From assembly GCF_004796535.1 (NCBI RefSeq), contig NZ_SPHY01000006.1, positions 62,001 to 126,000 on the forward strand: a DNA stretch of 64,000 nt, read 5' to 3'. The stretch comes from Sphingomonas flavalba (lineage in GTDB: Bacteria; Pseudomonadota; Alphaproteobacteria; Sphingomonadales; Sphingomonadaceae). Position 1 is the first letter of the stretch; the number at the start of each line of letters is the position of its first letter. Positions 37,316-52,234 of the stretch are shown piece after piece. A model generated the notes under the pieces. It was not told the DNA's origin. It worked only from the letters and a program-made list of their open reading frames with translations, and did not search any database. The translations under genes were made by a program, and so were the position numbers.

Positions 37316-38251
37316 ATGGTCCCACCCCAATCGCCGCGCAGGCTCCCTCCCCTGAACGCGGTGCGCGCGTTCGAAGCGGCAGCGCGCCACGGCAACTTCA
37401 CCCGCGCCGCCGACGAACTGTCGGTCACCCAGGGCGCGGTCAGCCATCAGGTGCGCTCGTTGGAGGAATGGTTCGGCTTCCCGCTGTTCGAACGCCACAA
37501 GCGCGAGGTCCGGCTGACGCAGAAGGGGGAAACCTACCTCGCCTTCGTCCGCGCGATGCTGAACGAACTGCATTCGGTAACGCAGATGGTGCGCGGCAAG
37601 ACGACGGAGGAATCGCTGTGCATCTCGGTGCCGGAATCCTTCGCGGTCAACTGGCTGATCGGCCGGCTCGGCTCCTTCGCCGAACGCCATCCGGAACTGA
37701 CGATCCGCCTGACCTCGCAGAACCAGATCGACGATCAGGGCCGCGTCGTCGGCGAGGAAGGGCCGCACTGGGTCGACCTGCGCATCCGCTACGGCCGGGC
37801 GAAATGGCCGGGCCTGAGGGTGCTGAAGCTGTTCGACGAGCAGGTGTTTCCGGTGTGCAGCCCCGGCTATGCCGCCGGCGGGCTGCGTGAGTTGGCCGAC
37901 CTTGGCGATCATGCTCTGATCCATGACGACATGCAGATGTCGTGGGCCAGTTGGCTGCGCGCGGTCGGCGCCGAACATGTCTCGCCGCCGCACGGGCCGG
38001 CGTTCAGCCATTCGCACATGGCGCTTCAGGCCGCCGCCGCCGGGCTCGGCATCGCCCTCGGCCGCAGCGTGCTGACCCACGACTATCTTGAAAGCGGCGC
38101 GCTGATCCGCCCGTTCGACGCCTATGTCCCGGCCGAGCACGGCTATTACCTGCTGTGCCAGGAACGCATGGTCAACCTGCCGAAGATCCAGGCGTTCAAG
38201 GTCTGGATCGCCGAGCAGGCGAAGGAATTCGCGCCGCCGGCCGCCGCATGA
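37316..38251 (+). CDS. LysR-family transcriptional regulator (GcvA-like)
   Basis: A 311-aa regulator with an N-terminal winged helix-turn-helix (LNAVRAFEAAARHGNFTRAADELSVTQGAVSHQVRSLE, about 13-47) and a periplasmic-binding-like effector domain (about 95-300). The GcvA-subgroup wording (PPLNAVRAFEAAARH, VTQGAVSHQV) is clear. It is divergent from the catabolic operon beginning at 37072 and most likely controls it in response to the substrate or an intermediate. The ATG at 37316 is used; no strong ribosome site is visible. Confidence 0.93.
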   Translation: MVPPQSPRRLPPLNAVRAFEAAARHGNFTRAADELSVTQGAVSHQVRSLEEWFGFPLFERHKREVRLTQKGETYLAFVRAMLNELHSVTQMVRGKTTEESLCISVPESFAVNWLIGRLGSFAERHPELTIRLTSQNQIDDQGRVVGEEGPHWVDLRIRYGRAKWPGLRVLKLFDEQVFPVCSPGYAAGGLRELADLGDHALIHDDMQMSWASWLRAVGAEHVSPPHGPAFSHSHMALQAAAAGLGIALGRSVLTHDYLESGALIRPFDAYVPAEHGYYLLCQERMVNLPKIQAFKVWIAEQAKEFAPPAAA

Positions 38252-38300
38252 CCCGATCTTTCCCTCCGGCCGCGATCGGGTTAGCGTCGGGTGGGGCAGG

Positions 38301-41009
38301 ATGAAAAAAGCAGAGACCAGAGCGATCGGGCCGGACGCGGCGCCGCCGTCGGCGCCGCCCACGATGCTGATCGGCAAGATGCGCCCGCCCCGGCAGCGGA
38401 TCGTCGCCTCGGTGCGCGAGGCGCTGCTCGGCCAGCTCGAAACCTCGCTCAGCGCGCTGATCACCATCGCCCAGTCGCCCGCCGGCTTCGGCAAGACGAC
38501 GCTGCTCGGGCAATGGTTCGAACGGCTGCGCGCACGCGGCGGGATCAAGGTCGCCTGGCTCAGCCTTGACGAGGATGACGGGGAAATCACCCGCTTCCTC
38601 GCCAACCTCGCCCTTGCCTTCCAGGCGGCGGGAATCGCGGTCGATCCGGCGGCGACCAGCCAGGCGCCGTCGTTCAGCGAGGCCGCCTATCGCCGCGACG
38701 CGCTGCGCGACGCGATCGAGCGGGAACCGGCGACGGTCATCGTCATCCTCGACGATTATCACCGCGTCCGCTCCGCGGAGGTCGACAGCGCGATCAACTA
38801 CCTGGTCCGCGCAGTGCCGACCGGACTGCACGTCGTCATCAGCACCCGCGACTGGCCCGACCTGCGCGTCGCCGATCTCGAGGCGCAGGGGCTGGTCGCC
38901 ACCGTCGACGCGGCAATGCTCGCCCTGACCGTGGCGGAGGCGGCGACGATCTTCGAAGGGCGGCTGGAGGGCGAGGACCTCGCCCGCATCCACGCCCGCA
39001 CCGAGGGCTGGGCCGTCGCCCTGCAACTCGCCAAGCTGTGGATCGACCGCGACCCCGCCCGCCGGGGGGAAATCGGCGCATTCAGCGGCCATACCGACGC
39101 GATCGGCCGCTATCTGCTCGAACAGGTGCTCGGCGACCTCGAACCGGATCTTCAGGATTTCCTCGTCGAAACCTCGATCCTCGACAGCTTCGATGCCGAG
39201 GCGGCCGATGCGGTGCGCGACCGCGACGACAGCCGGCAGGCGCTGACCCGGCTCGGGCGGTTCGACGCGCTGCTGATCCCACTCGACGCCGGGCGCCGGT
39301 GGTTCCGCTATCACCATCTGTTCGCCGATTTCCTGCGCGAGCAGTTGCAGCGCGATCCGGCCCGCGCCACCCGGCTCCACCGCCGCGCCGCCACCCGCTT
39401 CGCCGCCGACGGCGACGTGCTGCAGGCGGTGAAGCATGCCCAGCGCGCCGGCGACCTCGCCGGGGCCGTCGCCCTCGTCAACCAGGCCGGCGGCTGGGAA
39501 ATCGTGCTGCACCAGGGCGTCGGCTTCGCACGCGGGCTGATGGCGCTGTTCGACCCGGCCGCGATCGAATGCGAGCCAGCGCTGCTGCGCGTCCACGGCT
39601 ATCTTCGCCTGAAATACGGCGAGGTGGACGAAGCGCGGCGCTGCATCGACCGGGCAAGGCTGCTGGCCGGCGGCGTCGAGGAGCATCGCGACGACGCGAT
39701 CCTCGGCGCGCTGCTGCGCACCTATGCCGACGAAGTGCACGACGCGGCGTGGATGCCGGCGCTCGACGCGCGCATCGCCCGGCTCGCCCCGGCCGACCAT
39801 CTCGGCCGGGCGACGCTGCAGGCGACGGTCGCGGTCGGCGCGCTCGGCGCCGGCGATTTCGCGCTGGCCGAGCGCGCCAGCGCTGCCGGCATCCGCGCGA
39901 TGGAGGCGGCCGGCTCCGCGCTCGGCGCCACCTATTGCCAGTTCCACCTCGCCCAGAGCCACTTCTATCGCGGCGCGATCGAGGCGGCGGAGGCATCGTT
40001 CCGCGCCGCGCTGGTCACGGCGGAGGAGAATTACGGGTCGGACCGCGCGCTGAAGGCGGTCGGCAACAGCCTTCTCGCCCATATCCTCTACTGGCGCGAC
40101 GAGCTGGACGAAGCCCGTCGCCGCGTCGATTCGGCGCTCGATGCGCTCGAGGCGCACGATAGCTGGCTCGATATCCTGACCGTCGCCTGCTTCACCGCCG
40201 TCTTCCTCGCCGCCGGCCGGGGCGATGCCGCCGCGCTCGACACGCTGTTCGACCGGGTCAAGGCCATGGCGCGCGGGCGCGGCCTGCCGCAGCTCGACGC
40301 GCTCGCCGATGCCTGGCGGCTGGAAACCCTGGTCGCCCGCGGCGATGTCGAAGGGGCAGCGCAGATCGCCGCCGACCGCGGTTTCGATGCGCTGGCCCGC
40401 GGGCCGGACCAGCCGGGCGAATGGCGGATCCGCACCGCCGCCGGCCTCGCCGTCGCCCAGCTTCACCTGCGCACCGGCCAGGCGGCGCGGGCGTTGCAGA
40501 TCCTCCGCCCCTTGCGTGCCACTGCCGAGCGCCAACAGCGCGCCCTCGATGTCGCCCGGGTCGATACGCTGCTCGCCTGCGCGGCACGGCTGCGCGGCGA
40601 GACCCCGGCGATGCTGACGTCGATCGCCGCCGCCCTCGATTATGCCGCCGCCCACGACGTGCCGCGCGTCGTCACCGGCGTGGCGGTGGAGATCGACCCG
40701 CTGCTCAACGCGGCACTGCGCGGCGGCGCCACCGCCCTGCCCGACCGCTCGCGCGCCTATGCCCGCCGTCTGCGCCAGGCGCTGCCGACCCGGCCGCCGC
40801 CCACCGGCGAATCACTGTCCGGCCGCGAACTGGCGGTGCTCGGCCAGCTTTGCGTCGGCCGCTCCAACAAGGACATCGGCCGCCAGCTCGACCTGTCGGA
40901 AAACACGGTGAAGTTCCATCTGAAGCGCGTCTACGAGAAGCTTGGCGCCCATTCGCGCTCGGCGGCGGTTTCGGCCGCCATCCAGCGCGGCCTGATCCGC
41001 ATCGACTGA
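38301..41009 (+). CDS. MalT-like LuxR-family ATP-dependent transcriptional activator
   Basis: A 902-aa STAND-type regulator. Residues 20-300 form an NTPase domain with Walker A SPAGFGKTTLLGQW (59-72) and Walker B TVIVILDDYHRV; FRYHHLFADFLREQL marks the winged-helix segment seen in MalT; a long Ala-rich helical repeat (TPR-like) region follows; and the C-terminal 65 residues are a LuxR helix-turn-helix (SGRELAVLGQLCVGRSNKDIGRQLDLSENTVKFHLKRVYEKLG). The ATG at 38301 starts the conserved part. It lies 144 bp before, and on the same strand as, the receptor-hydantoinase-protease-avidin operon, which it probably activates on sensing an inducer. Confidence 0.93.
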   Translation: MKKAETRAIGPDAAPPSAPPTMLIGKMRPPRQRIVASVREALLGQLETSLSALITIAQSPAGFGKTTLLGQWFERLRARGGIKVAWLSLDEDDGEITRFLANLALAFQAAGIAVDPAATSQAPSFSEAAYRRDALRDAIEREPATVIVILDDYHRVRSAEVDSAINYLVRAVPTGLHVVISTRDWPDLRVADLEAQGLVATVDAAMLALTVAEAATIFEGRLEGEDLARIHARTEGWAVALQLAKLWIDRDPARRGEIGAFSGHTDAIGRYLLEQVLGDLEPDLQDFLVETSILDSFDAEAADAVRDRDDSRQALTRLGRFDALLIPLDAGRRWFRYHHLFADFLREQLQRDPARATRLHRRAATRFAADGDVLQAVKHAQRAGDLAGAVALVNQAGGWEIVLHQGVGFARGLMALFDPAAIECEPALLRVHGYLRLKYGEVDEARRCIDRARLLAGGVEEHRDDAILGALLRTYADEVHDAAWMPALDARIARLAPADHLGRATLQATVAVGALGAGDFALAERASAAGIRAMEAAGSALGATYCQFHLAQSHFYRGAIEAAEASFRAALVTAEENYGSDRALKAVGNSLLAHILYWRDELDEARRRVDSALDALEAHDSWLDILTVACFTAVFLAAGRGDAAALDTLFDRVKAMARGRGLPQLDALADAWRLETLVARGDVEGAAQIAADRGFDALARGPDQPGEWRIRTAAGLAVAQLHLRTGQAARALQILRPLRATAERQQRALDVARVDTLLACAARLRGETPAMLTSIAAALDYAAAHDVPRVVTGVAVEIDPLLNAALRGGATALPDRSRAYARRLRQALPTRPPPTGESLSGRELAVLGQLCVGRSNKDIGRQLDLSENTVKFHLKRVYEKLGAHSRSAAVSAAIQRGLIRID

Positions 41010-41016
41010 CCGCGCG

Positions 41017-41069
41017 CCTACCCGTTCGGGTAGGGCGCCGCCGCCGCCGCTACGTCACTACCCGTTTCG
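41017..41069. promoter_or_regulatory. Dyad and repeated half-site upstream of the receptor operon
   Basis: CCTACCCGTTCGGGTAGG (41017-41034) is a perfect dyad with 8-bp arms and a 2-base centre. The half-site recurs as CTACCCGTTTCG at 41058-41069, 40 bp after the first copy at 41018, close to four helical turns. It lies between the LuxR-type activator and the receptor gene, fitting an operator for that activator. The dyad could also fold as a hairpin ending the regulator's message, but no T-run follows. Confidence 0.5.
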
Positions 41070-41153
41070 ACCGCCGCCGCCCGCGCGTTGGGCATTGCAC
41101 ATCCCCCGCCTCTGCCCGCACCCTGACACGCACAAAAAGGGGAGGGTTTGGAA

Positions 41154-43379
41154 ATGGTTGCACGCACGGTCGCGGCCCTGCTGACGGGGACGATGCTGCT
41201 GGGCCTGGGCGCCACCGCGGCGGCCGGCCAGACGACGGAAGGCCGGGCCGCCCCGGCCGCCGACGCGCCGGACACCGATATCGTCGTCACCGCCCGCTAC
41301 CGCGAGGAACGGCTGCAGGACGTGCCGATCGCGGTCACCGCCTTCGGCGAAAAGCAGATCGCCGACGCCAAGGTCGACCGGGTCGGCGATTTCATCGGCC
41401 TGACCCCCAATGTCACCATCGCCCAGTCGGAAAGCTCCGGCCTCAGCGCCATTTCGATCCGCGGCATCACCCAGGTCCGCAATTCGGAAGCGCCGGTCGC
41501 GGTCGTCGTCGACGGCGTGCTGCAGAACAATCCGCGCCAGTTCGCGCAGGAGCTGTTCGACGTCGGCTCCATTCAGGTGCTGCGCGGGCCGCAGGGCGCG
41601 CTCTACGGCCGCAACGCCACCGGCGGCGCGATCATCATCAACACCCGCCAGCCGACCAATGATTTCTCCGGCCATGTCCGCGCCGGCTACGCCACCGGCC
41701 GTGAATACATGATCGAAGGGTCGGTCAGCGGGCCGATCGTCACCGACACGCTGCTGTTCCGCCTCGGCGCCCGCTACACCGACCGCAACGGCTATTTCGA
41801 CAATATCACCGTCGGCAAGAAGCAGGACCCGTATCGCGACCTGTCGGTCAGCGGCCTGATCAAATGGATGCCGACCGAAACGCTGACCGTCGACCTGCGC
41901 GGTTCGCTGTCCCGTACCCGCGGCGGGGCGCTCGACTTCCGTTACCAGCCGGCGAACCTCGCCGCCGACGGCAAGTCGCTGGACCCGGCCAATCCGTTCG
42001 ACTTCACCCGCGCCGATGCCAATCTGGTCGACCGCAGATTCTACTCGACCAATATCGGCCACGACGTCCGCGACATCGACGATATTTCGCTGAAGCTGGA
42101 CCTCGACCTCGGCTTTGCGACGCTGACCTCGATCACTGCCTACAACCGGCTGGAGGAATTCGTCTCGGGCGACCAGGTACCCTACACCGCGTCGCGCAAC
42201 GTCTTCGGCCTCGACGGCACCCAGACGCAGTATATCGACATCAGCGCGTTCAGCCAGGAACTGCGGCTGGCCTCCGCCTCATCCAGCCGGCTGCGCTGGA
42301 TGATCGGCGGCTATTTCCTCGATTCGAAGCGCTTCATCTCGACGACGACCGGCTTCGACAGCGGCACCGGCATCGCCCGCGTCGAACACAGCCCGCGCCC
42401 GATGACCGCCGACAATCCGTCGCTCAGCTTCTTCGGCGACAGCAACCGCAACCGCGACTATGCCGGCTTCGGCAACATCGCCTACGATATCGTGCCCGGC
42501 CTCGAAGCCAGCGTCGCGCTGCGCTACGACAAGGAAACCCGGCGCCAGACGGTCTCGCCCTACAACAGCGGCGGCGTGCCCGGCGCGGTCAACCGCGCCA
42601 GTTTCGACAAATGGCAGCCGAAGGTGACGCTGGCCTACAAGCCCAATGACGACGTCAACGTCTACGCCTCCTATGGCGAGGGTTTCCGCTCCGGCCAGTT
42701 CAACCAGAATGGCACCGCCGCCGCCGCCCAGGCCGCGGGGGTCGCCGGCGTGTCGGACCGGGTGCCGCAGGAAAACACCCTGACCTACGAAATCGGCACC
42801 AAGCTTCAGCTCGCCGACCGCCGGGTCCGCATCGACGCCGCGCTGTTCGACACGCGGGTGAAGAACCAGCAGTATTTCGTGTTCATCGGCGCGATCGGCG
42901 CGCAGGTGCTGGTGCCGATCGACAAGGTCAAGCTGACCGGCGGCGAAGTGCTCGTCACCGCCGACATGGGCGGCGGGCTCAGCGCCTATGCCGGCTTCGG
43001 CTACACCGACAGCACGATCAAGCGCTACCTCGTCACCCCGGCCGACGTCGGCAACCGCGCGCCCTATGTGCCGAAAACGACAATCAACGGCGGCCTGCAA
43101 TACCGCACGCCGCTGACCGACAGCCTCGGCCTGTTCGCGCGAGCCGATTATCGCCGCCTCGGCCGGCAATATTGGGACCCGGAGAATGCGACCGCGCGCT
43201 CCAATATCAGCCTCGCCGATTTCCGGCTGGGCATAGAGGACCCGAACGGCGGCTGGTCGGTGATCGGCTCGCTCGAAAACGCCTTCGACAAGAAATACAA
43301 TTCCGAATACGTCGCTGGCGGCTTCGCGCACGCCGCTGCCCCGCGCGTGTGGCGCATCGACCTGCGCTATAATTTCTGA
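41154..43379 (+). CDS. TonB-dependent receptor (741 aa), first gene of the avidin-like operon
   Basis: An outer membrane receptor. The ATG at 41154 has GGGGAGGG seven bases upstream. A signal peptide (AALLTGTMLLGLGATAAAGQ) is followed by DTDIVVTARYREERLQDVPIAVTAF, plug motifs ISIRGITQVRNSEAPVAVVVDGV, SIQVLRGPQGALYGRNATGGAIIINT, and a barrel ending RIDLRYNF. It opens a five-gene set (next gene 16 bp on) with hydantoinase A/B, a pepsin-type protease and an avidin-like protein, so it presumably imports that set's substrate. The ligand is unknown; see the biotin-like hypothesis. Confidence 0.94.
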   Translation: MVARTVAALLTGTMLLGLGATAAAGQTTEGRAAPAADAPDTDIVVTARYREERLQDVPIAVTAFGEKQIADAKVDRVGDFIGLTPNVTIAQSESSGLSAISIRGITQVRNSEAPVAVVVDGVLQNNPRQFAQELFDVGSIQVLRGPQGALYGRNATGGAIIINTRQPTNDFSGHVRAGYATGREYMIEGSVSGPIVTDTLLFRLGARYTDRNGYFDNITVGKKQDPYRDLSVSGLIKWMPTETLTVDLRGSLSRTRGGALDFRYQPANLAADGKSLDPANPFDFTRADANLVDRRFYSTNIGHDVRDIDDISLKLDLDLGFATLTSITAYNRLEEFVSGDQVPYTASRNVFGLDGTQTQYIDISAFSQELRLASASSSRLRWMIGGYFLDSKRFISTTTGFDSGTGIARVEHSPRPMTADNPSLSFFGDSNRNRDYAGFGNIAYDIVPGLEASVALRYDKETRRQTVSPYNSGGVPGAVNRASFDKWQPKVTLAYKPNDDVNVYASYGEGFRSGQFNQNGTAAAAQAAGVAGVSDRVPQENTLTYEIGTKLQLADRRVRIDAALFDTRVKNQQYFVFIGAIGAQVLVPIDKVKLTGGEVLVTADMGGGLSAYAGFGYTDSTIKRYLVTPADVGNRAPYVPKTTINGGLQYRTPLTDSLGLFARADYRRLGRQYWDPENATARSNISLADFRLGIEDPNGGWSVIGSLENAFDKKYNSEYVAGGFAHAAAPRVWRIDLRYNF

Positions 43380-43395
43380 GCCGGGCCGGGCGGAC

Positions 43396-45465
43396 ATGGC
43401 AAGGCGGCTGAGAGTAGCGAGTGACGTCGGCGGCACCTTCACCGACATGGTGTGGTGCGAAGTCGATACGGCCAGCGGCACGGCCGGGGCGGTGCAGGCG
43501 GTCAAGGCCGACACCACCCCGCCGGATTTCGAACAGGGGGTGCTGGCCGCCATCGCCAAGGCGGGGGTCGATCTCGGCGCGGTCGACTTCCTCGCCCACG
43601 GGTCGACGGTCGTCATCAACGCGCTGACCGAGCGCAAGGGCGCGCCGACCGGCCTCGTCACCACCGCCGGCTTCCGCGACGTGCTGGAAATCGCGCGCGG
43701 CAACCGGCCGGACCTTTTCAACTTCAACTTCCGCAAGCCGCCGCCCTTCGTCGAGCGCCATCTGCGCCGCGAGATCGACGAACGCACCAACGTGCAGGGG
43801 GAGATCGTACGCGAACCGGCGCTGGACGCTCTTGCCGCCATCGTCGCGCATTTCCGGGCGGAAGGGGTGACGGCGGTCGCCGTCTGCTTCCTCCACGCCT
43901 ATGCCAACCCGGCGAACGAACAGCATGTCGCCCAGCGGCTGCGGGAACTGATGCCGGAAGCATCGGTCATCGCCAGCCACGAGATCAGCCGCGAATGGCG
44001 CGAATATGAACGCACGTCGACGACGGTGCTGTCGGCCTATGTCGCGCCGACGGTCGAACGCTATGTCGGCGCGCTCCGACATGGGCTCAGCGAACGCGGT
44101 CTCGCCGGCGCGCCTTATATCATGCAGTCGAACGGCGGCATCGCCACGGTGGCGGCGGTTTGCCGCAACCCGATCACCATGGTCGAATCCGGCCCGGCAT
44201 CGGGCATCTTCGCCGCCGCCGCGCTCGGCCGGCTGATCGACGAACCAGACCTGCTGGTCCTCGACATCGGCGGCACCACCGCCAAATGCGCGCTGATCGA
44301 AGACGGCGAGGTCAAGGTCGGCACCGATTATTACATCGAGCGCGATCGCAAGCGCCCCGGCTACCCGATCCAGACGCCGGTCGCCGAAATCGTCGAGATC
44401 GGCAATGGCGGCGGCTCGATCGCCTGGGTCGACGACGGCGGCAAGCTGCATGTCGGCCCGCGCTCGGCGGGCGCCCGGCCCGGCCCGGCCGCCTATGGCC
44501 GCGGCGGCGACCAGCCGACGACGACCGACGCCAATCTGCTGCTCGGCCGCATCGATCCCGCCACCTTCGTCGGCGGAGAGGTGGTGCCGGACTGGGCGGC
44601 GATCGACGGCGCCTTCGCCCCGCTCGCCCGGCGGCTGGAGATGGACAACGCCCAGCTCGCCGCCGGCATCGTCCGCATCGCCAATGCCAACATGGTCAAT
44701 GCCCTGCGCCTGGTGTCGACAAACAAGGGGTACGACCCGCGCGACTTTGCCCTGCTGGTCTGCGGCGGGGGGGGCGCGATGCACGGCGTCGCGCTGGCCG
44801 AGGAACTGGGCGTCCGGCATGTCATCGTGCCGGTCAATTCCTCGGCGTTCTCGGCGTGGGGGATGCTGCTGTCCGACCTGCGCCGCGACTATCTGCGCAC
44901 CAGCCTCGTCGACCTGGACGACGGCGCGCGCGCGCAGGTCGAGGCGCTGTTCTCGGAGCTGGAGGCGACTGCAACCGCCGACTTCGCCGAGGACGGCGCC
45001 CAGAACCCGCCCCGGTTCGAACGCTTCGCCGACATGCGCTATCTGGGCCAGGAACACACGGTGAAGGTGCCGATGGCCGGTGCCGACACCCTCGCCGCGC
45101 TGATCGACCGTTTCCATGCGCTGCACGAGAAACGCTACACCTACCGGCTCGACGGCGCGGTCCAGCTGGTCAACGCCCATCTCGTCGCGCTGATCGAGGT
45201 GCCGAAGCCGTCGCTGCCGGAACGGCCGGCGACCGGCGCGCCGCTCGCCACCGCGCGGATCGGCAGCCGCCGCGTCTCGTTCGACCGGCAGGGCGCGCAT
45301 GACGCGGCGATCTACGACGGCCTGGCGCTCGAACCCGGCATGGCCTTCGCCGGGCCGGCGGTGGTGCAGGAACCGTCGGCAACACTGGTCGTGCCGCCCG
45401 GCCACGGCGTCTCGATCGACCGCTTCGGCAACTACCACGTCCACCTTGGCGCAGCGGAGGCCTGA
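43396..45465 (+). CDS. hyuA: Hydantoinase/oxoprolinase family protein, A subunit
   Basis: A 689-aa ASKHA-fold ATPase subunit. It has the family start RVASDVGGTFTDMV (phosphate loop at 9-16), AHGSTVVINALTERKGAPTGLVTT, the ESGPASGIFAAAALG segment, LDIGGTTAKCALI and GGGGAMHGVALAEELG. With HyuB it forms an ATP-dependent enzyme that opens cyclic amides (hydantoins, 5-oxoproline) or, in other branches, carboxylates ketones. HyuB starts two bases after its stop. Substrate choice cannot be read from sequence; the neighbouring avidin-like gene hints at a cyclic urea. Confidence 0.92.
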   Translation: MARRLRVASDVGGTFTDMVWCEVDTASGTAGAVQAVKADTTPPDFEQGVLAAIAKAGVDLGAVDFLAHGSTVVINALTERKGAPTGLVTTAGFRDVLEIARGNRPDLFNFNFRKPPPFVERHLRREIDERTNVQGEIVREPALDALAAIVAHFRAEGVTAVAVCFLHAYANPANEQHVAQRLRELMPEASVIASHEISREWREYERTSTTVLSAYVAPTVERYVGALRHGLSERGLAGAPYIMQSNGGIATVAAVCRNPITMVESGPASGIFAAAALGRLIDEPDLLVLDIGGTTAKCALIEDGEVKVGTDYYIERDRKRPGYPIQTPVAEIVEIGNGGGSIAWVDDGGKLHVGPRSAGARPGPAAYGRGGDQPTTTDANLLLGRIDPATFVGGEVVPDWAAIDGAFAPLARRLEMDNAQLAAGIVRIANANMVNALRLVSTNKGYDPRDFALLVCGGGGAMHGVALAEELGVRHVIVPVNSSAFSAWGMLLSDLRRDYLRTSLVDLDDGARAQVEALFSELEATATADFAEDGAQNPPRFERFADMRYLGQEHTVKVPMAGADTLAALIDRFHALHEKRYTYRLDGAVQLVNAHLVALIEVPKPSLPERPATGAPLATARIGSRRVSFDRQGAHDAAIYDGLALEPGMAFAGPAVVQEPSATLVVPPGHGVSIDRFGNYHVHLGAAEA

Positions 45466-45467
45466 CC

Positions 45468-47141
45468 ATGCAGGACGATCTTTTCACCATAGAGATCATC
45501 AAGGAAGCGCTGGTCGCGATCGGCGACGAGATGTTCGCGGCGCTGATCCGCACCTCGATGAGCCCGATCATCTACGAAACCACCGATTTCGCGGTCGGCG
45601 CCACCGATGCGCGCGGCAACCTGCTGGCGCAGGGCAACGGCGTCACCGGCTTCCTCGCCACGCTCGACACCGCGGTGCAGAGCACCCTGCTCCATTATCC
45701 GGCGCCGGGCGACGTGCGCCCCGGCGACATCTTCATTACCAACAGCCCCTATGAAGGCGGCGGCACCCACCTGTCGGACGTCGTCATCCTGCTGCCGGTG
45801 TTCCACGGCGACCGGCTGATCGCCTGGACGGTCAACAAGGCGCACTGGACGGAGGTCGGCGGTGCCTTCGCCGGCAGCGCCTCGACCCAGTCGACCGACA
45901 TCTATCAGGAGGGGCTGCATTTCCGATTCCTGAAACTCTACGAAGGGGGCCGCATAAACCGCGGCATCGTCGAGATTATCCGCGCCAATGTCCGCCTGCC
46001 GGACAGCACGATCGGCGATCTTCACGCCGGCGTCGCCGCCTGCCGGGTCGGCGGCAACCGGGTGCTGGAACTGGTTGCCAAATACGGGCTGGAGCCGGTG
46101 CTCGGCGCGATGGACGAGCTGCTCGACTATGGCGAGCGGATGACCCGCGCCGCCCTCGCCCGCCTGCCGCAGGGCGTGTTCGAGGCGGAGGACGTGATCG
46201 AGGAGGACGGCGTCGGCAACGGCCCGTTCGCGATCCGGGTCAAGGTGACGGTCGCCGGCGACCGGATGGTCGCCGACTTCACCGGCACCGCCGATCAGGC
46301 GAAAGGGCCGATCAACACCAGCATGGCCGGCCTGGTCACCGCCGCGCGCTGCGCGTTCAAGGCGGTGACCGATCCCGACATCCCGGCCAATGGCGGCTGC
46401 TTCCGCGCGCTGGAGGTGATCTGCCCGCCCGGCACCATCCTGTCGGCGCAAAGCCCGGCGCCGGTCTCGGTCTACTATGAATCGATGATCGCCGCGATCG
46501 AGGTGATGTGGCGCGCGCTGATGCCGCACATGCCGGACCGGCTGCCGGTCGGCCATACCCGCAGCGTCGGCGCCACCTTCATTTCCGGCATCCACCCGCG
46601 CAGCGGCGCCCTGTTCGTGATGGGCGAACCGCTGCTCGGCGGCTGGGGCGCCTCCGCCGGGGCGGACGGCGATAACGGGCAGTTCTGCTGCGGCAACGGC
46701 GAGACATTCAATATCCCGGTCGAACTGGCCGAAAGCCGCTACGGCTTCGAGATCGATCGCTATGCCTTCCGTGAGGATGCCGGCGGCGAAGGGCGCTATC
46801 GCGGCGGCCGCGGCGTCGTGCTCGATTACCGGATCACCGCGGACGAAGCGTTCCTGACCTTCTCGTCGACCCGCACCGTGTCGCGCCCCTGGGCGGCGGC
46901 CGGAGGCTGCGAAGGCTCGCACAACGGCGCCTTCATCTTGCGCGCCGACGGCTCGGAAGAACCCCATACCATGGTCACCGGCCTGCGCGTGGCGAAGGGC
47001 GAGACCATCCGTCTCCTTACCGCCACCGGCGGCGGCTACGGCCCGCCGGCCGAGCGGCCGGCGGCGGCCATCGCGCGCGACATCAGGAACGGCTTCATCA
47101 CGGCTGATCGGGCGAAGGAGGTTTTCGGCCGGCCAGAGTAA
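45468..47141 (+). CDS. hyuB: Hydantoinase/oxoprolinase family protein, B subunit
   Basis: A 557-aa HyuB subunit. Family blocks seen: ALVAIGDEMFAALIRTSMSPIIYETTDFAVGATD, DIFITNSPYEGGGTHLSDVVIL, NKAHWTEVGG (metal-binding region), DFTGTADQAKGPINTS, NGGCFRALEVICPPGTI and the late EDAGGEGRYRGGRGVVLDYRI. Length is typical. It follows hyuA by two bases, implying coupled translation and a 1:1 complex. Confidence 0.92.
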   Translation: MQDDLFTIEIIKEALVAIGDEMFAALIRTSMSPIIYETTDFAVGATDARGNLLAQGNGVTGFLATLDTAVQSTLLHYPAPGDVRPGDIFITNSPYEGGGTHLSDVVILLPVFHGDRLIAWTVNKAHWTEVGGAFAGSASTQSTDIYQEGLHFRFLKLYEGGRINRGIVEIIRANVRLPDSTIGDLHAGVAACRVGGNRVLELVAKYGLEPVLGAMDELLDYGERMTRAALARLPQGVFEAEDVIEEDGVGNGPFAIRVKVTVAGDRMVADFTGTADQAKGPINTSMAGLVTAARCAFKAVTDPDIPANGGCFRALEVICPPGTILSAQSPAPVSVYYESMIAAIEVMWRALMPHMPDRLPVGHTRSVGATFISGIHPRSGALFVMGEPLLGGWGASAGADGDNGQFCCGNGETFNIPVELAESRYGFEIDRYAFREDAGGEGRYRGGRGVVLDYRITADEAFLTFSSTRTVSRPWAAAGGCEGSHNGAFILRADGSEEPHTMVTGLRVAKGETIRLLTATGGGYGPPAERPAAAIARDIRNGFITADRAKEVFGRPE

Positions 47142-47170
47142 AAGCGTAAGCATTGAAATGGAGAGGAAAA

Positions 47171-48313
47171 ATGACCGATTCCACCGCGCCGCTCGGCGGC
47201 GTCTCGTTTCCCATGCAACGCGGACCCTACCAGAATAACGGCGCCAGCCCCTGGTATACCGAAACGACGCTCGGCACCCCCGGTCAGACGCTCAAATTCG
47301 CGATCGACACCGGCACCAACATGGTCTGGTCGACCTCGACCCTCTGCGCCCCGACCAGTTGCCAGCATTACAGCGGCGCCCGCTTCGACTATCAGAAATC
47401 CTCGACCTACACCTGGGTGGACTGCATCCAGGTGCCGTTCAGCTTCGGACCGTGGGGGACGATGCAGGTCGAAACCGGCCAGGATTTCCTGGGCCTGCCC
47501 GGCGGCGTTCGCCTTCCGCTCGTGCTCTATCTGTCGGCCGACTATACCGGCGACCAGTTCGCCCAGCTCGACTGGGACGGCGGCATCGGCATCCCGTCTG
47601 GCAGCCCGTACAAGCAGGGCGACACGACGTTCATCGTCCAGGACATGATGAACAAGGGGCTGATCTCCCCCAACCTTCCGTACGTCGCGTTCGACTGGAA
47701 CGCGGCGACGTCCACCGGCTCCTGCCTGATCGGCGGCGTCGACCCGGCGAAATACATCCCCGACGAAGGCATTTTTCTGCCGTGGACGCCCTACACCCAG
47801 TTTGCTGGCGTCGAATATATCTGGAGCGCCGATCTGAAGGCCTATTTCGTCGGCAACCAACTGGTTGCGCAGAACGTCCAGTTTGCGCTCGATTCCGGCT
47901 CGTCGCAGTTCAAGGGCGACGACGACATCATGAACAAGACACTGTCGCTGCTCCAGGCGATGGGTAACCCGCCGGTGCGGATGGGCTTCGCCGACGGCGG
48001 GATGATCACCATCCCGTCCAACCTCTACAACGTCACGATCCAGGCCGGGCCGGACAAGGGCAAGACCCTGCCGCAGTTCCAGCCGCTCGGCCTGACCGGG
48101 CTGGTGCTGGTCGGCTCGGTGGTGATGGAAAGCTGCTACACCGTCCACGAATATCGCGTCGTTCAGTGCGGGGCGAACCGCTTCTCGCTCGCCCCGGTTG
48201 GCATGTACGTGTTCAACAAGCCCGGCGGGCCGAAGATCGTTACCCCGCCGTCGTCCGGCATCGGCCGCCCGTTCGGCCAGCGTGAGGTCGTGCGCGGCCG
48301 CACCATGGAATAG
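47171..48313 (+). CDS. Pepsin-like (A1 family) aspartic protease
   Basis: A 380-aa protein recognisable as a bilobal pepsin-type aspartic peptidase. The first lobe has YTETTLGTPGQTLKFAIDTGTNMVWSTS with catalytic D46, then WDGGIGIPSG (the usual DGILGLG position). The second lobe has VQFALDSGSSQFKGDD with catalytic D241, and VLVGSVVMESCYTVHE like the strand before the C-terminus. The flap position that is Tyr75 in pepsin appears to be Phe92 (FSFGPWGTM). No signal or propeptide is visible, as in cytoplasmic bacterial shewasins. ATG 47171 has GAGAGGA upstream; a GAGATG-like earlier start in the same frame at 47153 is less likely. Such proteases are rare in bacteria. It lies between hyuB and the avidin-like gene. 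Confidence 0.82.
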   Translation: MTDSTAPLGGVSFPMQRGPYQNNGASPWYTETTLGTPGQTLKFAIDTGTNMVWSTSTLCAPTSCQHYSGARFDYQKSSTYTWVDCIQVPFSFGPWGTMQVETGQDFLGLPGGVRLPLVLYLSADYTGDQFAQLDWDGGIGIPSGSPYKQGDTTFIVQDMMNKGLISPNLPYVAFDWNAATSTGSCLIGGVDPAKYIPDEGIFLPWTPYTQFAGVEYIWSADLKAYFVGNQLVAQNVQFALDSGSSQFKGDDDIMNKTLSLLQAMGNPPVRMGFADGGMITIPSNLYNVTIQAGPDKGKTLPQFQPLGLTGLVLVGSVVMESCYTVHEYRVVQCGANRFSLAPVGMYVFNKPGGPKIVTPPSSGIGRPFGQREVVRGRTME

Positions 48314-48355
48314 CGCCGCAGCGCCCAATCCACCCCCACAAGCAAGGAGGATAAC

Positions 48356-49168
48356 ATGACCCTCGCAGGTACTTGGCAGAACGAATACGGCTCGCAGATG
48401 GTGTTGAGCGAGATCAACGCCAATCTGGTTTGGGGCCAATACTCGTCGACCACCGGCTCGACCGGCAAATACATGGTCATCGGCTATCAGCAGACCGCCA
48501 ATCCCAAGCCGGCCGCCGGCCAGGCGGTGGCGCTCGCCATCGAATGGCACTCGATCGTCGCGGGGCCGGGCGACCCGAGCTGGAACTGGTCGTCGGGCCT
48601 GAGCGGCCAGATCAGCATCCAGAACGGCAAGGAATCGCTGGTCCTCGCCCATGCCATGGTCGCCAGCAGCGATTTTTCCGGCCTGGCGGCAGCCGGCACA
48701 TATATCGACAAACTGACCTACTTCCGCACCGCCACGGCGCCGGACGGAGCCGGGCAGCGGCCGCAGAACGGCGCCGCGCTGGCCGACCCGCTACAAGGCA
48801 CGTGGGAAAGCGCCGACGGCACGATGCTGGCGATCCAGGTCTACCCCTATACCGGCTCCCAGTTCGGCTGGGCCGAGGGCAAGATGCTGTACAACGGCAT
48901 AGTCTGTCCGATCGAGGGCGTGACCGACATCAACGCCCAGGCCAGCGGCCTCAACCTGCAATCGACGGCGATCACCGCCCTGCCGACCCCCACCGGCCCG
49001 GCGATCGCGCTGGCCGGCTGCCTCGACTATCGCAACGGCCGGCTGACCTTGACCAACCTGACCAGCCAGTCGACCGCGTCCAACGCGACCTATGTCGAAA
49101 CGACGGTATCGCAGCTCACCTTCGTCCGCGTCGGCGACATGACCGACCTCGACAAGCTGCGCCGCTGA
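48356..49168 (+). CDS. Tandem avidin/streptavidin-like domain protein
   Basis: A 270-aa protein, ATG 48356 with AAGGAGG five bases upstream. Residues 3-124 read like a streptavidin-type barrel: GTWQNEYGS (W7, N9, S13 match streptavidin W21, N23, S27), GQYSS (Y29, S31 match Y43, S45), IEWHS (W64 for W79), SGLSGQIS, and a final TYIDKLTYF whose D118 matches D128. The Trp residues equivalent to W108 and W120 are missing. Residues 146-262 look like a second, more diverged copy (LQGTWESADGT to VSQLTFVR). No signal peptide is seen. Avidins bind biotin; here the ligand may be biotin with lower affinity or something similar. Last gene of the operon, 42 bp after the protease. Confidence 0.78.
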   Translation: MTLAGTWQNEYGSQMVLSEINANLVWGQYSSTTGSTGKYMVIGYQQTANPKPAAGQAVALAIEWHSIVAGPGDPSWNWSSGLSGQISIQNGKESLVLAHAMVASSDFSGLAAAGTYIDKLTYFRTATAPDGAGQRPQNGAALADPLQGTWESADGTMLAIQVYPYTGSQFGWAEGKMLYNGIVCPIEGVTDINAQASGLNLQSTAITALPTPTGPAIALAGCLDYRNGRLTLTNLTSQSTASNATYVETTVSQLTFVRVGDMTDLDKLRR

Positions 49169-49170
49169 TA

Positions 49171-49208
49171 CCCCCCCTGCTTCTGCACAAGCAGAAGCTC
49201 GGGAGGGG
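49171..49208 (+). terminator. Hairpin at the end of the receptor-avidin operon
   Basis: Two bases after the avidin-like stop, GCTTCTGC (49179-49186) and GCAGAAGC (49191-49198) pair around a four-base loop, extended outside by CCCCCC with GGGAGGGG. It is a strong structure and the right place for transcription to end, but no T-run follows, so it may be a REP-like hairpin. Confidence 0.55.
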
Positions 49209-49280
49209 CGACGAGCGCCATGGATCCGGCGCGCCCCATCGCCTGACGACTGGGAAAGCGCGGCAAGACACCCTCCAGAG

Positions 49281-49307
49281 CGCGGCTTTGAGTCCCTCAG
49301 AGCCGCG
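49281..49307. other. Stable 12-bp stem-loop
   Basis: CGCGGCTTTGAG (49281-49292) pairs with CTCAGAGCCGCG (49296-49307) around a three-base loop, with one G-T wobble. It lies at the downstream end of the acyl-CoA dehydrogenase relic and is followed by TTTCGG on the plus strand. It may be a terminator remnant. Confidence 0.5.
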
Positions 49308-49620
49308 TTTCGGAAGATCCGGCTTGGCGCCGCCGCCGCAACGGCGCTGGCGGAACGGCGAAGGCGAGCAGCAGCGCCGCCTGGCTTCGCCGCAGCCAGG
49401 CGACGGCAACATGGCGGAAGGCGCGGAAGAACGGCGTCGCATTATCGAACGCCCGCGCCTGACCGCCGACGCGTAGCGCGGCGATCGTGTCGCCCACCGC
49501 CGACGGCGCCGCTACGTGGGCTTCCAGCCCGGCGGTCGCCCCGTTTCCGGCACCGTCTCGGCGATCCGCCGGCCGAGGATCGGCAGCGCCGCGTCGTCCG
49601 GCCGCTACGCTCGGCTTCAA
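49297..49620 (-). pseudogene. Acyl-CoA dehydrogenase C-terminal remnant
   Basis: On the minus strand one frame reads AHVAAPSAVGDTIAALR, then DNATPFFRAFRHVAVAWL and RRSQAALLLAFAVP, closely resembling the C-terminal helices of FadE-type acyl-CoA dehydrogenases (family wording is of the form ATPYLRAFGHVVVAWLWL). Just upstream the same kind of sequence continues in another frame (ETVPETGRPPGW), so there is at least one frameshift. No catalytic part of the gene is left. It is a relic, probably of a gene deleted when the neighbouring operon was inserted or rearranged. Confidence 0.6.
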
Positions 49621-49735
49621 ACCTCATTCTCTATGCAAAAATAATTCGCTATACTGTTGATATATAATCCAATAAATTAAGCATATCGTAGATGCATTCC
49701 GTGCTCCCGCAAAAAGCAGGGTCCAGCCATCACCC
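49621..49735. other. AT-rich spacer without a gene
   Basis: About 115 bases of AT-rich DNA between the acyl-CoA dehydrogenase relic and the end of the PPIase gene. CGCAAAAAGC-type and TATA-rich sequence occurs but I see no gene and no convincing promoter for a neighbour. Together with the relic and hairpins it makes up a 567-base stretch with no intact gene. Confidence 0.6.
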
Positions 49736-50407
49736 TTAGTTCCGTGTCGCGCCAGCCCGTCGCCGGTCGATCGCCAGCCCGCACCGTTCTCGTATCGCGG
49801 CAACGGTCGCCCGGCTCGCGCGGTGCACGGCGATGCGCCTGATCCGCACCGGCGGACGCAGGCGCTCCCCGTCCGCCTCCGCGCGGTGGATCTTACGCAC
49901 CACGTCCATGCCGCGGGTGACATGGCCGAACACGGCGAAGCCCTGCCCATCGCGGTTGCGGGGGCCGGCGAAGTCCATCGACGGGCTTGGCTTCACGACG
50001 ATCGAGAAGCTCGACGTCGCCGTGTCCGGTCCCCAGCGCGCCATCGACAGTGCGCCCGCCCGGTGGCGGAGGCCGGTCACCGACGTCCGCTCCAGCGGGA
50101 TCGGCCCGAACGCGTCATGCTCCTCGCCGTCGCGCGCCTCGATCTGGATCACGTCGATCGGCGGGGCGGTGCCATCGTTCCGGTCGCTGCGCACGGTGCG
50201 GAAGAAGCGGCCGCCGTCATAATGGCCGCCCGCGATGTAGCGCAACGCGTTGCAGACGGTGACCGGCGCCGCCGCCAGCGCCAGTGCCGCGTCGATAGGG
50301 CCCCGGTCGGTCTCGATCCGGATCGGCACCTCCGCCACCACCGTGCGCGCGCCCGCCGCCGCCGGCAGCAGCGCCAGCAGGATCGGCGGCAGCGCGCGGC
50401 GGATCAG
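49736..50407 (-). CDS. Cyclophilin-type peptidyl-prolyl isomerase, probable CTG start
   Basis: A periplasmic PPIase of about 223 aa. Cyclophilin features are VCNALRYIAGGHYDGGRFFRTV, GALSMARWGPDTATSSFSIVV and GQGFAVFGHVTRGMDVVRKI; several active-site residues deviate from human cyclophilin A. The only ATG/GTG starts (GTG 50341 or 50338) fall after a clear signal peptide that reads IRRALPPILLALLPAAAGA in the same frame. A CTG at 50407, overlapping the TGA stop of the M1 peptidase gene as CTGA, would start exactly at that peptide, so I use it. It is co-transcribed with the peptidase and may help fold secreted proteins. Confidence 0.82.
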   Translation of the reverse strand: MIRRALPPILLALLPAAAGARTVVAEVPIRIETDRGPIDAALALAAAPVTVCNALRYIAGGHYDGGRFFRTVRSDRNDGTAPPIDVIQIEARDGEEHDAFGPIPLERTSVTGLRHRAGALSMARWGPDTATSSFSIVVKPSPSMDFAGPRNRDGQGFAVFGHVTRGMDVVRKIHRAEADGERLRPPVRIRRIAVHRASRATVAAIRERCGLAIDRRRAGATRN

Positions 50408-52155
50408 CGGCGGCGCCCCTGGTCCGGCTGCGTCGCGCGCCAGGCCTGGAACTGGTCGATCGAGTCGAGCTGACGCAGGATCTTCGCCTCCGGATCCAGC
50501 GTCACCGTCGCCGATGCCGGCGCATCCACCACGCCCGTGCCGTCGGCCATCGCCAGCGTCACCGTCCTGCCGTCGACGCGGACGTCGACCGGCATCGGGA
50601 ACGGCAGGTTGTCCGGCGTTTCCCAGCGAAGGCTCAGCCGGTCTCCGGCGCGCGTCTCGACCAGCTTCGGCAATCCGGCGCGGTAGAGATAGATATTGAA
50701 GAACCAGTCGTAATTGCTTCCGGTAACTTGGTTTACCGTCGCCATGAAGCCCTTGCTGGTTCCGAATTGCGGCTCGAAGTTACCGGGCCTCGGGTCCGGC
50801 CGGCCATAAGTGACTCGCCTGATAACCTCGTAGAAAGCCTCGTCGCCGATCAGGTTGCGCAGCGTATGCATCACCCAGCTGCCCTTGGGGTAGATATCCC
50901 CCCTCGGCCCGGTCGGGTCGGCATAGACCCAGTTCTCCGGCCGCTCCTCGCCGCTGACCAGCGGCTTCTCGTTGCGGATGCCGGCCCGCTGCGACTTGAG
51001 CAGCGCATGATAGTCCAGGTCGCCGTACAGATAGCGGCCGAGCAGCGGCTGCATGTACGACCCGATCCCCTCGTGCAGCCACAGGTCGTCGTAATTGGCG
51101 ACGGACAACTGGTTGGCGAACCACTCGTGCGAGAACTCGTGGTGCATCAGCGGGTCGAACCCGTACATCGTCTTGGTATAGTCGATGCTGTAGCCGTTGA
51201 GCGTCTGGTTCTCGAGTCCGGAATAGGGCACGCGGATCACGCCCATCTTCTGGTCGCCCCACGGATAGGGGCCGATCTGCGATTCGAAGAAATCGAGCGC
51301 GACAGGGAATTCCTTGAACAGTTCGGCGGCCTTCTCCTCCTCACCCGGCAGGTACCAGAAGCGCATCGGGATGGTGTTGCCGAACCGGCTCTTATAATCG
51401 CCCTCCAGCAGCTTGTACGGCCCGACGTCGAGCACCAGGCCATAGGTATGCGGGCTGCGCGCGCGCCAGTTGTAGGTGCGCCAGCCATCCTTCTCGGTCA
51501 TCCCCATGAACGTGCCGTTTCCTGGGGCGACCAGCGGGGCGGGCACGGTATAGTGCAGGTCGGCGAGCTTGGTCTTGCCGGTCGGGTGGTCGATGCACGG
51601 ATAGAGCAGATCGCAGCCGCCGCCCCAGTGCGACGTGTCGATCCAGGTCTGGCCGTCCGGTGTCTTGGTCCAGGTGGTGCCGCCTTCCCACGGCGGCCGC
51701 TTGGCGAGCGGCGGCGTGCCGGACCAGACGATCCGCGCCTTGGTCACCGATCCCTTGGCCAGCGGCCGGCGCAGCTTGATGCGTAGCTGCCCTTCCGTAT
51801 TCGTATAGTCGGCCGGCGATACGGTTCGCCCGTTGAGCACGATCGAGGCGATCCGGAACTTGGGATAGAGGTCGAGGATCAGCTCGGGCACCGCCTCCTT
51901 CGCGCGCAGGGTCAGCGTCGCATCGCCCTCGATGCGCTTTTCGTCCGGAAACACCTTCAGCGCCAAGTCGAGATGCTCGAACGACAGTGCAAGCTGTTCC
52001 GGCGGCATGACGCCGCCCATCTTGCGGGTCTGCGGAGTGATGAACTTCGCCTCCGCATCCGGGTCGGGTGCGGCGGCTGTGGTCTGCGCGACGGCGGCGG
52101 TCGCGACCAGAAGGGCGGCGCCCGCCACCAGGGTCCGGTAGGCGACTGGCTTCAT
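50404..52155 (-). CDS. M1 family zinc aminopeptidase-like metallopeptidase
   Basis: A 583-aa secreted gluzincin. Signal peptide MKPVAYRTLVAGAALLVATAAVAQ. The N-terminal beta-domain precedes a GLENQ motif (variant of GAMEN, around 313-317) and the zinc site HHEFSHEWFANQL (H339, E340, H343) with E362 in LWLHEGIGSYM as third ligand. The C-terminal helical domain is shorter than in full aminopeptidase N. ATG at 52155 with GGAG upstream. It probably degrades peptides in the periplasm. It lies 79 bp after the TonB receptor at 52235, which may feed it peptides. Confidence 0.93.
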   Translation of the reverse strand: MKPVAYRTLVAGAALLVATAAVAQTTAAAPDPDAEAKFITPQTRKMGGVMPPEQLALSFEHLDLALKVFPDEKRIEGDATLTLRAKEAVPELILDLYPKFRIASIVLNGRTVSPADYTNTEGQLRIKLRRPLAKGSVTKARIVWSGTPPLAKRPPWEGGTTWTKTPDGQTWIDTSHWGGGCDLLYPCIDHPTGKTKLADLHYTVPAPLVAPGNGTFMGMTEKDGWRTYNWRARSPHTYGLVLDVGPYKLLEGDYKSRFGNTIPMRFWYLPGEEEKAAELFKEFPVALDFFESQIGPYPWGDQKMGVIRVPYSGLENQTLNGYSIDYTKTMYGFDPLMHHEFSHEWFANQLSVANYDDLWLHEGIGSYMQPLLGRYLYGDLDYHALLKSQRAGIRNEKPLVSGEERPENWVYADPTGPRGDIYPKGSWVMHTLRNLIGDEAFYEVIRRVTYGRPDPRPGNFEPQFGTSKGFMATVNQVTGSNYDWFFNIYLYRAGLPKLVETRAGDRLSLRWETPDNLPFPMPVDVRVDGRTVTLAMADGTGVVDAPASATVTLDPEAKILRQLDSIDQFQAWRATQPDQGRRR

Positions 52156-52234
52156 CCTGTTTCTCCGCTCGTGAACCGGCATCGCCGGCGCCGTGGTGGC
52201 GCTGGTGATGCCATGATACCCCGCTGCTTCGCGA

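Follow-up and report, generated by a model that had tools for sequence, protein, structure and literature searches.

A conserved operon linking an ATP-dependent cyclic amide hydrolase and a pepsin-type protease to a tandem avidin-like protein in Sphingomonas flavalba

Genes and proteins of the operon

The window analyzed here, a stretch of 64,000 nucleotides, forms part of contig C32 in the 3.07 Mb genome of Sphingomonas flavalba. At positions 41154-49168 it carries five genes on the + strand, separated by gaps of 16, 2, 29 and 42 bp, which encode a TonB-dependent receptor, the two subunits of an ATP-dependent cyclic amide hydrolase (HyuA and HyuB), an A1 (pepsin-type) aspartic protease and a tandem avidin-like protein. 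A MalT-like regulator gene ends at 41009, 144 bp upstream of the receptor gene. The initial annotation had claimed this gene set with the same gaps, and had treated it as one linked unit; the coordinates and gaps match, and the grouping is not a product of chance because the same genes occur together in other genomes, with avidins 27-67% identical. The system joining protease and avidin to HyuAB is real and conserved. We tentatively favor a role in the catabolism of a cyclic amide, as argued below. The features are as follows.

38301..41009, + strand: MalT-like LuxR-family STAND regulator (GerE 66.3 bits, TPR_MalT 59.6 bits)
41154..43379, + strand: TonB-dependent receptor (Pfam TonB barrel 139.6 bits, above the cut-off)
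43396..45465, + strand: HyuA, ATP-binding subunit of the ATP-dependent cyclic amide hydrolase (Pfam Hydantoinase_A 294.7 bits)
45468..47141, + strand: HyuB, metal-site hydrolase subunit (Hydantoinase_B 553.1 bits; tetrad D40, H101, D104, H126)
47171..48313, + strand: A1 (pepsin-type) aspartic protease (Asp 77.5 bits, cut-off 19.9; DTG and DSG motifs)
48356..49168, + strand: tandem avidin-like protein of 270 amino acids (Pfam Avidin 38.3 bits, cut-off 24)
48356..48733, + strand: avidin domain 1 (residues 1-126; conserved N9, S13, Y29, S31, W64)
48779..49135, + strand: avidin domain 2 (residues 142-260; same fold, far lower conservation)
37316-38251, same strand as the operon: LysR gene, 5' of the MalT-like regulator

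All five operon proteins exceed their Pfam cut-offs, with Hydantoinase_A (plus N and C) and Hydantoinase_B domains present, and the receptor proposed in the initial annotation is borne out by its TonB barrel score. In the last protein, a profile search recovered the only PF01382 match in the whole genome (40.5 bits), and a sequence-only search of the Protein Data Bank (PDB) returned weak matches, tamavidin 2 being found at E 0.004. Structure prediction from a 19-row alignment (predicted local distance difference test (pLDDT) 89.6, predicted template modeling score (pTM) 0.90) gave 8 + 8 strands in two barrels, in agreement with the tandem avidin fold that had been claimed; alignment A2 excluded locus L027, which is cut by a contig end. 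Closest to the model in structure is 6s50, a dimeric streptavidin engineered as a single chain (Z 28.6, root-mean-square deviation 2.4, 228 residues aligned), and single avidin barrels match near Z 11. As modeled, the protein would be a natural single-chain pseudo-dimer of two avidin barrels, with domain 1 far better conserved than domain 2 (23 of 126 versus 5 of 119 columns invariant). Laitinen et al. 2021 (PMC8033661; this and the other papers cited are represented here by part of their text) found no known domain in the C-terminal extension of ~150 amino acids that characterizes their "Extended clade" of avidins. In the window protein, this extension is modeled as a second avidin barrel.

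Among PDB entries, HyuA and HyuB are nearest to N-methylhydantoinase 7hk5 and then to 6yra, with carboxylases more distant. The entry 6yra, listed in the PDB as 5-oxoprolinase and hydantoinase, is one that we take to be a caprolactamase structure. The best-scoring NCBIfam models are those for caprolactamase (517 and 247.8 bits), with scores below the equivalog cut-offs of 1000. A D/H/D/H metal tetrad is present in all 11 HyuB proteins aligned (HyuB of five further loci lay outside the alignment), matching the Asp-His-Asp-His tetrad described for subunit B (PMC8453981). Domains and tetrad together support, at the level of sequence, the earlier claim that HyuAB opens rings. Carboxylation instead of hydrolysis was rejected, as acetone and acetophenone carboxylases score lower than N-methylhydantoinase and caprolactamase. 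A tree of 42 HyuA proteins, built without the near duplicates L010, L016 and L017 and without the second copy of genome G011, placed the 15 from avidin loci in one clade with support of 1.0. Outside this clade lies a second HyuA from the Paraburkholderia oxyphila locus, where a second, distant HyuAB and an M20-family enzyme (L012:10214-18542) possibly constitute a separate hydantoin-type set.

Both D[TS]G catalytic motifs are intact in 14 of 14 proteases aligned. The protease model matches pepsins, chymosin among them, over its full length with a bilobal fold, at a pLDDT of only 65. By eye, neither the protease nor the avidin starts with a signal peptide (the starts of some relatives are uncertain), which disfavors action outside the cell for a protease that, as the initial annotation suggested, could free a protein-bound ligand. 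The window's protease was taken to begin at ATG 47171, an in-frame TTG at 47153 being a possible alternative, and the regulator was assumed to start near 38301 in a reading frame open from 38124. GGAG-like motifs precede several gene starts, as judged by eye. Counts of sigma-70 promoters and terminators in 40900-49500 fell within the shuffle range, a weakly informative comparison for such a genome. On the 3' side of the operon, genes for a cyclophilin and an M1 peptidase lie on the opposite strand.

Distribution of the gene set

Within the same family, the avidin occurs in 4 of 298 genomes and the protease in 3 of 298, all three within the avidin-bearing four (hypergeometric probability ~9e-7, for genomes that are not independent). 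Of 149 same-family genomes, four have HyuA at ≥60% identity, and these are the four that carry the avidin; among the matches listed, the best of the other genomes reached 44-47%. In a class sample of 385 genomes, only the window's genome matched. A scan of 84,980 species genomes with two short patterns yielded 18 loci. Searches for further relatives matched 10 of 249 and 10 of 341 genomes, from which the full-length matches (2 and 6) were taken as loci, G679 and G687 among them having already been included from other searches; short partial matches came from 8 and 3 genomes, one from each being used only as a short-avidin row. The 27 loci compared comprise the pattern scan, a Novosphingobium sp. 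EMRT-2 plasmid and the full-length relatives, after merging of L010 with G089 and of L017 with G011. They are not a census because the two-pattern scan missed relatives that other searches found. As the loci were selected by the presence of the avidin, the counts describe what accompanies avidin, not how often HyuAB has an avidin.

HyuA and HyuB are both present at 16 of the 27 avidin loci, in alphaproteobacteria, in Paraburkholderia oxyphila and one genome of the same family, and in two genomes of the Marinomonas order. One genome, G089, has a gene order identical to that of the window, so that the check for conserved gene order elsewhere, suggested by the initial annotation, was positive. 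The MalT-like regulator accompanies 15 of the 16 HyuAB loci, and the sixteenth reaches a contig end. A homologue of the TonB receptor is encoded at eight of the 16; the other eight carry a different protein with a signal-like start and, by eye, the look of an outer-membrane barrel, for which no Pfam or NCBIfam match was obtained for the members scanned.

L014:14700-15599, L065:13796-14686 and relatives: alternative barrel-like protein in the TonB receptor's place

A racemase is found at 12 of the 16 loci, and a prolidase or aminopeptidase P at eight, some loci ending too soon to tell. The A1 protease is present at six and missing at 10. In eight of these ten protease-less loci, the MalT-like gene comes immediately after the avidin gene. 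A single gene encodes both protease and avidin in G1150 and G1246, at a locus with racemase, major facilitator superfamily (MFS) permease and HyuAB. Fusion, adjacency and co-occurrence point to joint action of protease and avidin at loci that have both; the avidin also has a role of its own, because ten HyuAB loci do without the protease. The protease was considered as a stand-in for the M24 prolidase and rejected, since the D8 locus has both and G1246 encodes an aminopeptidase P alongside the fused protease.

The remaining 11 loci are without HyuAB in the stretch examined. Ten of them are gammaproteobacterial and carry protease and avidin (Vibrio salinus, six Marinomonas and three others), with a hybrid histidine kinase at eight of the ten and a GGDEF response regulator at seven (L022-L026, L067-L069); the kinase at L023 shows no membrane segment at its start by eye. 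These neighbors suggest a signaling role for the gammaproteobacterial protease-avidin neighborhood. A DUF3422 gene follows the protease-avidin pair in several of the loci with the histidine kinase. At L020, the avidin lies near a peptide-type ABC transporter, with no HyuAB and no protease.

Other arrangements were also observed. At L011:7886-10816, one A1 protease gene is flanked by two tandem-avidin genes, and the three genes run divergently from a set comprising TonB, HyuAB, prolidase and NCS1 genes (L115). At G1036:C1:2571951-2572366, a decayed copy survives as pieces of an avidin relative interrupted by several stops. An avidin-HyuAB locus of Pseudochrobactrum-like character (L016; JAHREI010000011.1, 9995-19440) lies in an assembly titled Bacillus subtilis SK6B4; its outer-membrane protein and racemase are 97-99% identical to those of L014, and the assembly is probably mislabeled or contaminated. 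Three origins or roles for the system were rejected. A scan of viral contigs gave no relative; only one of 72,556 plasmid records carried it, and that plasmid is non-mobilizable; and the defense-system search with PADLOC returned nothing for avidin, protease, HyuA or HyuB, with one weak match limited to the C-terminal end of the regulator.

Ligand and substrate of the operon

To locate the ligand pocket, 28 domain-1 sequences were aligned, at the sequence level, with a streptavidin reference sequence and with 11 short bacterial avidins as control. In streptavidin, N23, S27, Y43 and S45 hold the ureido carbonyl and NH of biotin, and W79, W92, W108 and W120 form the Trp box for high-affinity biotin binding. 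The positions of N23, S27, Y43, S45 and W79 are conserved in 28 of 28 domain-1 sequences, and W92, W108 and W120 are retained in none. Among the short avidins, Y43 is present in four and S45 in seven. Read at this level, the ring-carbonyl site is under stricter conservation than its short-avidin counterpart, and the box fitting the rings of biotin is rebuilt; the avidin seems to have been re-tooled for a ligand other than biotin.

Clues to the substrate come from the enzymes of relatives. The diagnostic residues of hydantoin/allantoin racemases are N or D; M; T or S; and T, and those of OpaE-like racemases are V/I/L; Y/F/W; V/I/L; and G/P (PMC12661438). These positions were mapped through PDB alignments, the first two via OpaE only. 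All 12 operon racemases of relatives have I/V; F/Y/W; I/V; and G, together with both catalytic Cys, and none has the hydantoin-racemase set. The 12 correspond to about nine independent sequences, L014-L016 and L006/L018 being near-identical; the count excludes L006b, an N-terminally cut second racemase gene close to the EMRT-2 operon, whose second pocket has T and V. OpaE acts as an epimerase on a fused ketopiperazine (PMC12661438), and cyclo-Trp-Trp is isomerised by NozR, a member of the same subfamily (PMC10156859). For the M24 enzyme of relatives, the best match is proline dipeptidase (E 3.5e-141), and four M24 enzymes have GHG(I/L)G and RLED motifs in common, as patterns only. If the NH amide is the bond opened in cyclo(Xaa-Pro), the product would be Xaa-Pro, a prolidase substrate. 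In G052, an M24 homologue lies ~1.5 kb from a 4-hydroxyproline epimerase gene (NCBIfam 536.6 bits, cut-off 376); the gene that follows is likewise permease-like at its start. Six loci encode a permease, of NCS1 type in two and of MFS type in four. It has been suggested that lactamases or cyclic dipeptide hydrolases may be encoded by many of the genes labeled 5-oxoprolinase (PMC6061476).

Based on these findings, we propose, as a reading that we prefer without regarding it as secure, that the operon serves the breakdown of a cyclic amide. The likeliest such compound is a 2,5-diketopiperazine (cyclic dipeptide), which might contain proline or hydroxyproline, and the avidin would be its holder or sensor. 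The proposal builds on the conserved grouping of the regulator and outer-membrane receptor genes with HyuAB and the tandem avidin, on the avidin fold of the model, on the catalytic motifs of HyuB and protease, and on the racemase and prolidase of relatives. By kinship, a diketopiperazine ranks first as substrate and a hydantoin second. The ligand would cross the outer membrane via the TonB receptor, or via the barrel-like protein that takes its place in some relatives, and the inner membrane via a permease, which in relatives is of NCS1 or MFS type. Once the ligand is cytosolic, avidin domain 1 may use the former biotin-carbonyl site to grip its ring amide. At loci with an OpaE-like racemase, that enzyme would invert a ring carbon; HyuAB would open the ring with ATP to yield a linear dipeptide, which prolidase or aminopeptidase P would split. 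The avidin probably holds or senses the ligand in the cytosol, coupled in function to the MalT-like activator; at most gammaproteobacterial loci, its partner may be the histidine kinase instead. The A1 protease is envisaged to work in complex with the avidin.

Several observations weigh against this reading. The window's own locus is without racemase and prolidase, so the substrate has to be deduced from relatives: at E ≤0.001 the window's genome yielded no homologue of the operon racemase, and its best M24 prolidase homologue (67%) lies on another contig, with an Ldh_2 enzyme adjacent and an amino acid permease nearby. The racemase matches of G687 and G688 are distant (34-35%), and G686 has none. 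The NCS1 family also carries allantoin and nucleobases and fits cyclic ureas equally. At the thresholds used, the ten gammaproteobacterial loci have no HyuAB, racemase or prolidase in the stretch examined. In G011, a second HyuAB (L117, G011:C34:247001-266000; HyuA 60%) is accompanied by a TonB receptor (38%) and has no avidin beside it. In the pocket region, other Trp residues occur (W78 in 28 of 28 and W76 in 19 of 28), and the counterpart of D128 lies two positions upstream in the alignment, as Asp in 26 of 28, Asn in one and, by eye, Glu in G868. The Trp box varies among the 11 short avidins too (W79 kept in five, W92 in four, W108 in 10 and W120 in seven), so that, of the losses, only that of W108 is distinctive.

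The initial annotation had proposed capture and salvage of biotin, biocytin or a biotinyl peptide. The Avidin score above the Pfam cut-off, the retained ureido-site positions with W79, and the other Trp residues near the pocket region are all compatible with biotin, and Laitinen et al. 2021 rated Extended-clade avidins potent biotin binders from sequence (PMC8033661). We nevertheless find biotin, biocytin or dethiobiotin as ligand unsupported and their salvage very improbable: three Trp-box residues are gone from every domain-1 sequence, though Trp residues lie nearby, and 10 of 11 short avidins retain W108; no signal peptide was seen by eye; the enzymes of relatives are racemase, prolidase and lactamase; and no biotin gene was among 39 proteins run against Pfam, although no search was aimed at biotin genes. 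The same operon could instead serve another cyclic urea, such as a 5-substituted hydantoin, a dihydropyrimidine or an allantoin-like compound, which HyuAB would convert to an N-carbamoyl product. This is consistent with N-methylhydantoinase as the best PDB match of HyuAB, with hydantoin/allantoin racemase as the best PDB match of the racemase by overall score, ahead of OpaE, with the NCS1-type permeases and with the conserved ureido site. We consider it unlikely, and a weaker candidate than a cyclic dipeptide, because the relatives' racemases are without hydantoin-racemase residues. In addition, no carbamoylase-type gene was found among the nine window proteins scanned (37316-52323), and an M20 enzyme, searched with a single reference, was found only in the relative that supplied it, beside the second HyuAB.

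Other explanations concern the protease-avidin pair itself. The pair might be a regulatory module independent of HyuAB, in which the avidin senses a small cyclic ligand and switches a cytosolic protease acting on the linked regulator, be it MalT-like or a histidine kinase. Its persistence without HyuAB beside gammaproteobacterial kinases and GGDEF proteins, the fusion in two genomes and the position of the avidin gene directly before the MalT-like gene argue for such a module; the absence of protease from 10 of 16 HyuAB loci argues against it, and adjacency to a regulator is common in operons. On balance, we regard it as possible but doubtful. By analogy with calycin-fold metalloprotease inhibitors, which pair with their proteases, the avidin barrel might also be an inhibitor or immunity partner of the protease. 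Strict pairing wherever the protease occurs, including the fusions, would fit, but the avidin persists at loci that have no protease, seven of 17 avidin-bearing genomes searched gave no protease match, and the ligand-pocket residues are among the most conserved columns, which makes an inhibitor highly unlikely.

The preferred reading of the operon as a cyclic amide pathway can be extended to the avidin branch as a whole. Conceivably, though we hold this with more doubt than conviction, the branch left biotin to become a cytosolic cyclic-dipeptide receptor that gates a pepsin-type protease, either fused or bound, and passes its signal to a STAND activator or histidine kinase. If so, the protein would be a single-chain pseudo-dimer with one live pocket, the ring amide being held by the old ureido site, and the module would serve ring-amide catabolism with HyuAB and signaling in gammaproteobacterial loci without it.

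Comparison with known systems

The role of bacterial avidins has been little studied (PMC8033661), and the enzymes that open diketopiperazine rings were called unknown in 2013 (PMC3852281). Linkage, co-occurrence and fusion tie one avidin clade to a named reaction type, making its ligand directly testable. The favored reading would supply candidate genes for diketopiperazine breakdown and would give bacterial pepsins a cellular setting, and protein engineers would have a scaffold in a natural single-chain avidin dimer whose pocket is altered. The initial annotation knew of no described system with this combination of genes. That statement does not hold for the fusion of A1 peptidase and avidin, published in 2021 for two Pseudomonas and others (PMC8033661); it stands for the link to the hydantoinase, "hydantoin" appearing nowhere in the main text of that paper (its supplementary neighbor table lies outside this check). 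Our literature search found no paper joining "avidin" with "hydantoinase", and none that combined these two with a TonB-dependent receptor. Within the literature covered, the links to HyuAB, OpaE-like racemase and prolidase, the second barrel and the altered pocket were not found in print.

The hyu operon of Pseudomonas sp. NS671 presumably also includes hyuE. With this operon (hyuABC, PMC8453981) the locus shares HyuA and HyuB, to which relatives add a racemase of the same superfamily. Here, in contrast, no carbamoylase was found among the scanned window proteins, the racemase pocket of relatives is not of the hydantoin type, and avidin and A1 protease are additional. Caprolactamase CapAB and N-methylhydantoinase (PMC8453981) have in common with the window's HyuAB two subunits, an ATP-binding A, a metal tetrad in B, and a hydrolytic rather than carboxylating character; the window's HyuAB differs in scoring below the caprolactamase cut-offs and in its linkage to an avidin. 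The operon racemases of relatives share the four pocket residues and the catalytic Cys pair of OpaE (PMC12661438). OpaE and NozR (PMC10156859) serve biosynthesis, whereas the setting here looks catabolic, and no homologue was found in the window's genome. Shewasin D is a bacterial cytoplasmic A1 pepsin (PMC4814920); a cytoplasmic location is suggested here by the lack, by eye, of a signal peptide, and unlike Shewasin D the protease is paired or fused with an avidin. The closest likeness is to the Extended-clade avidins of Laitinen et al. 2021, which share the avidin domain, the C-terminal extension of ~150 amino acids and the joined A1 protease, and whose taxa include Haematobacter missouriensis, Burkholderia oxyphila and Marinomonas species, also found here (PMC8033661). 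To that description, as given in the part of the paper considered, our analysis adds a modeled second barrel and the association with HyuAB, racemase, prolidase and a TonB receptor.

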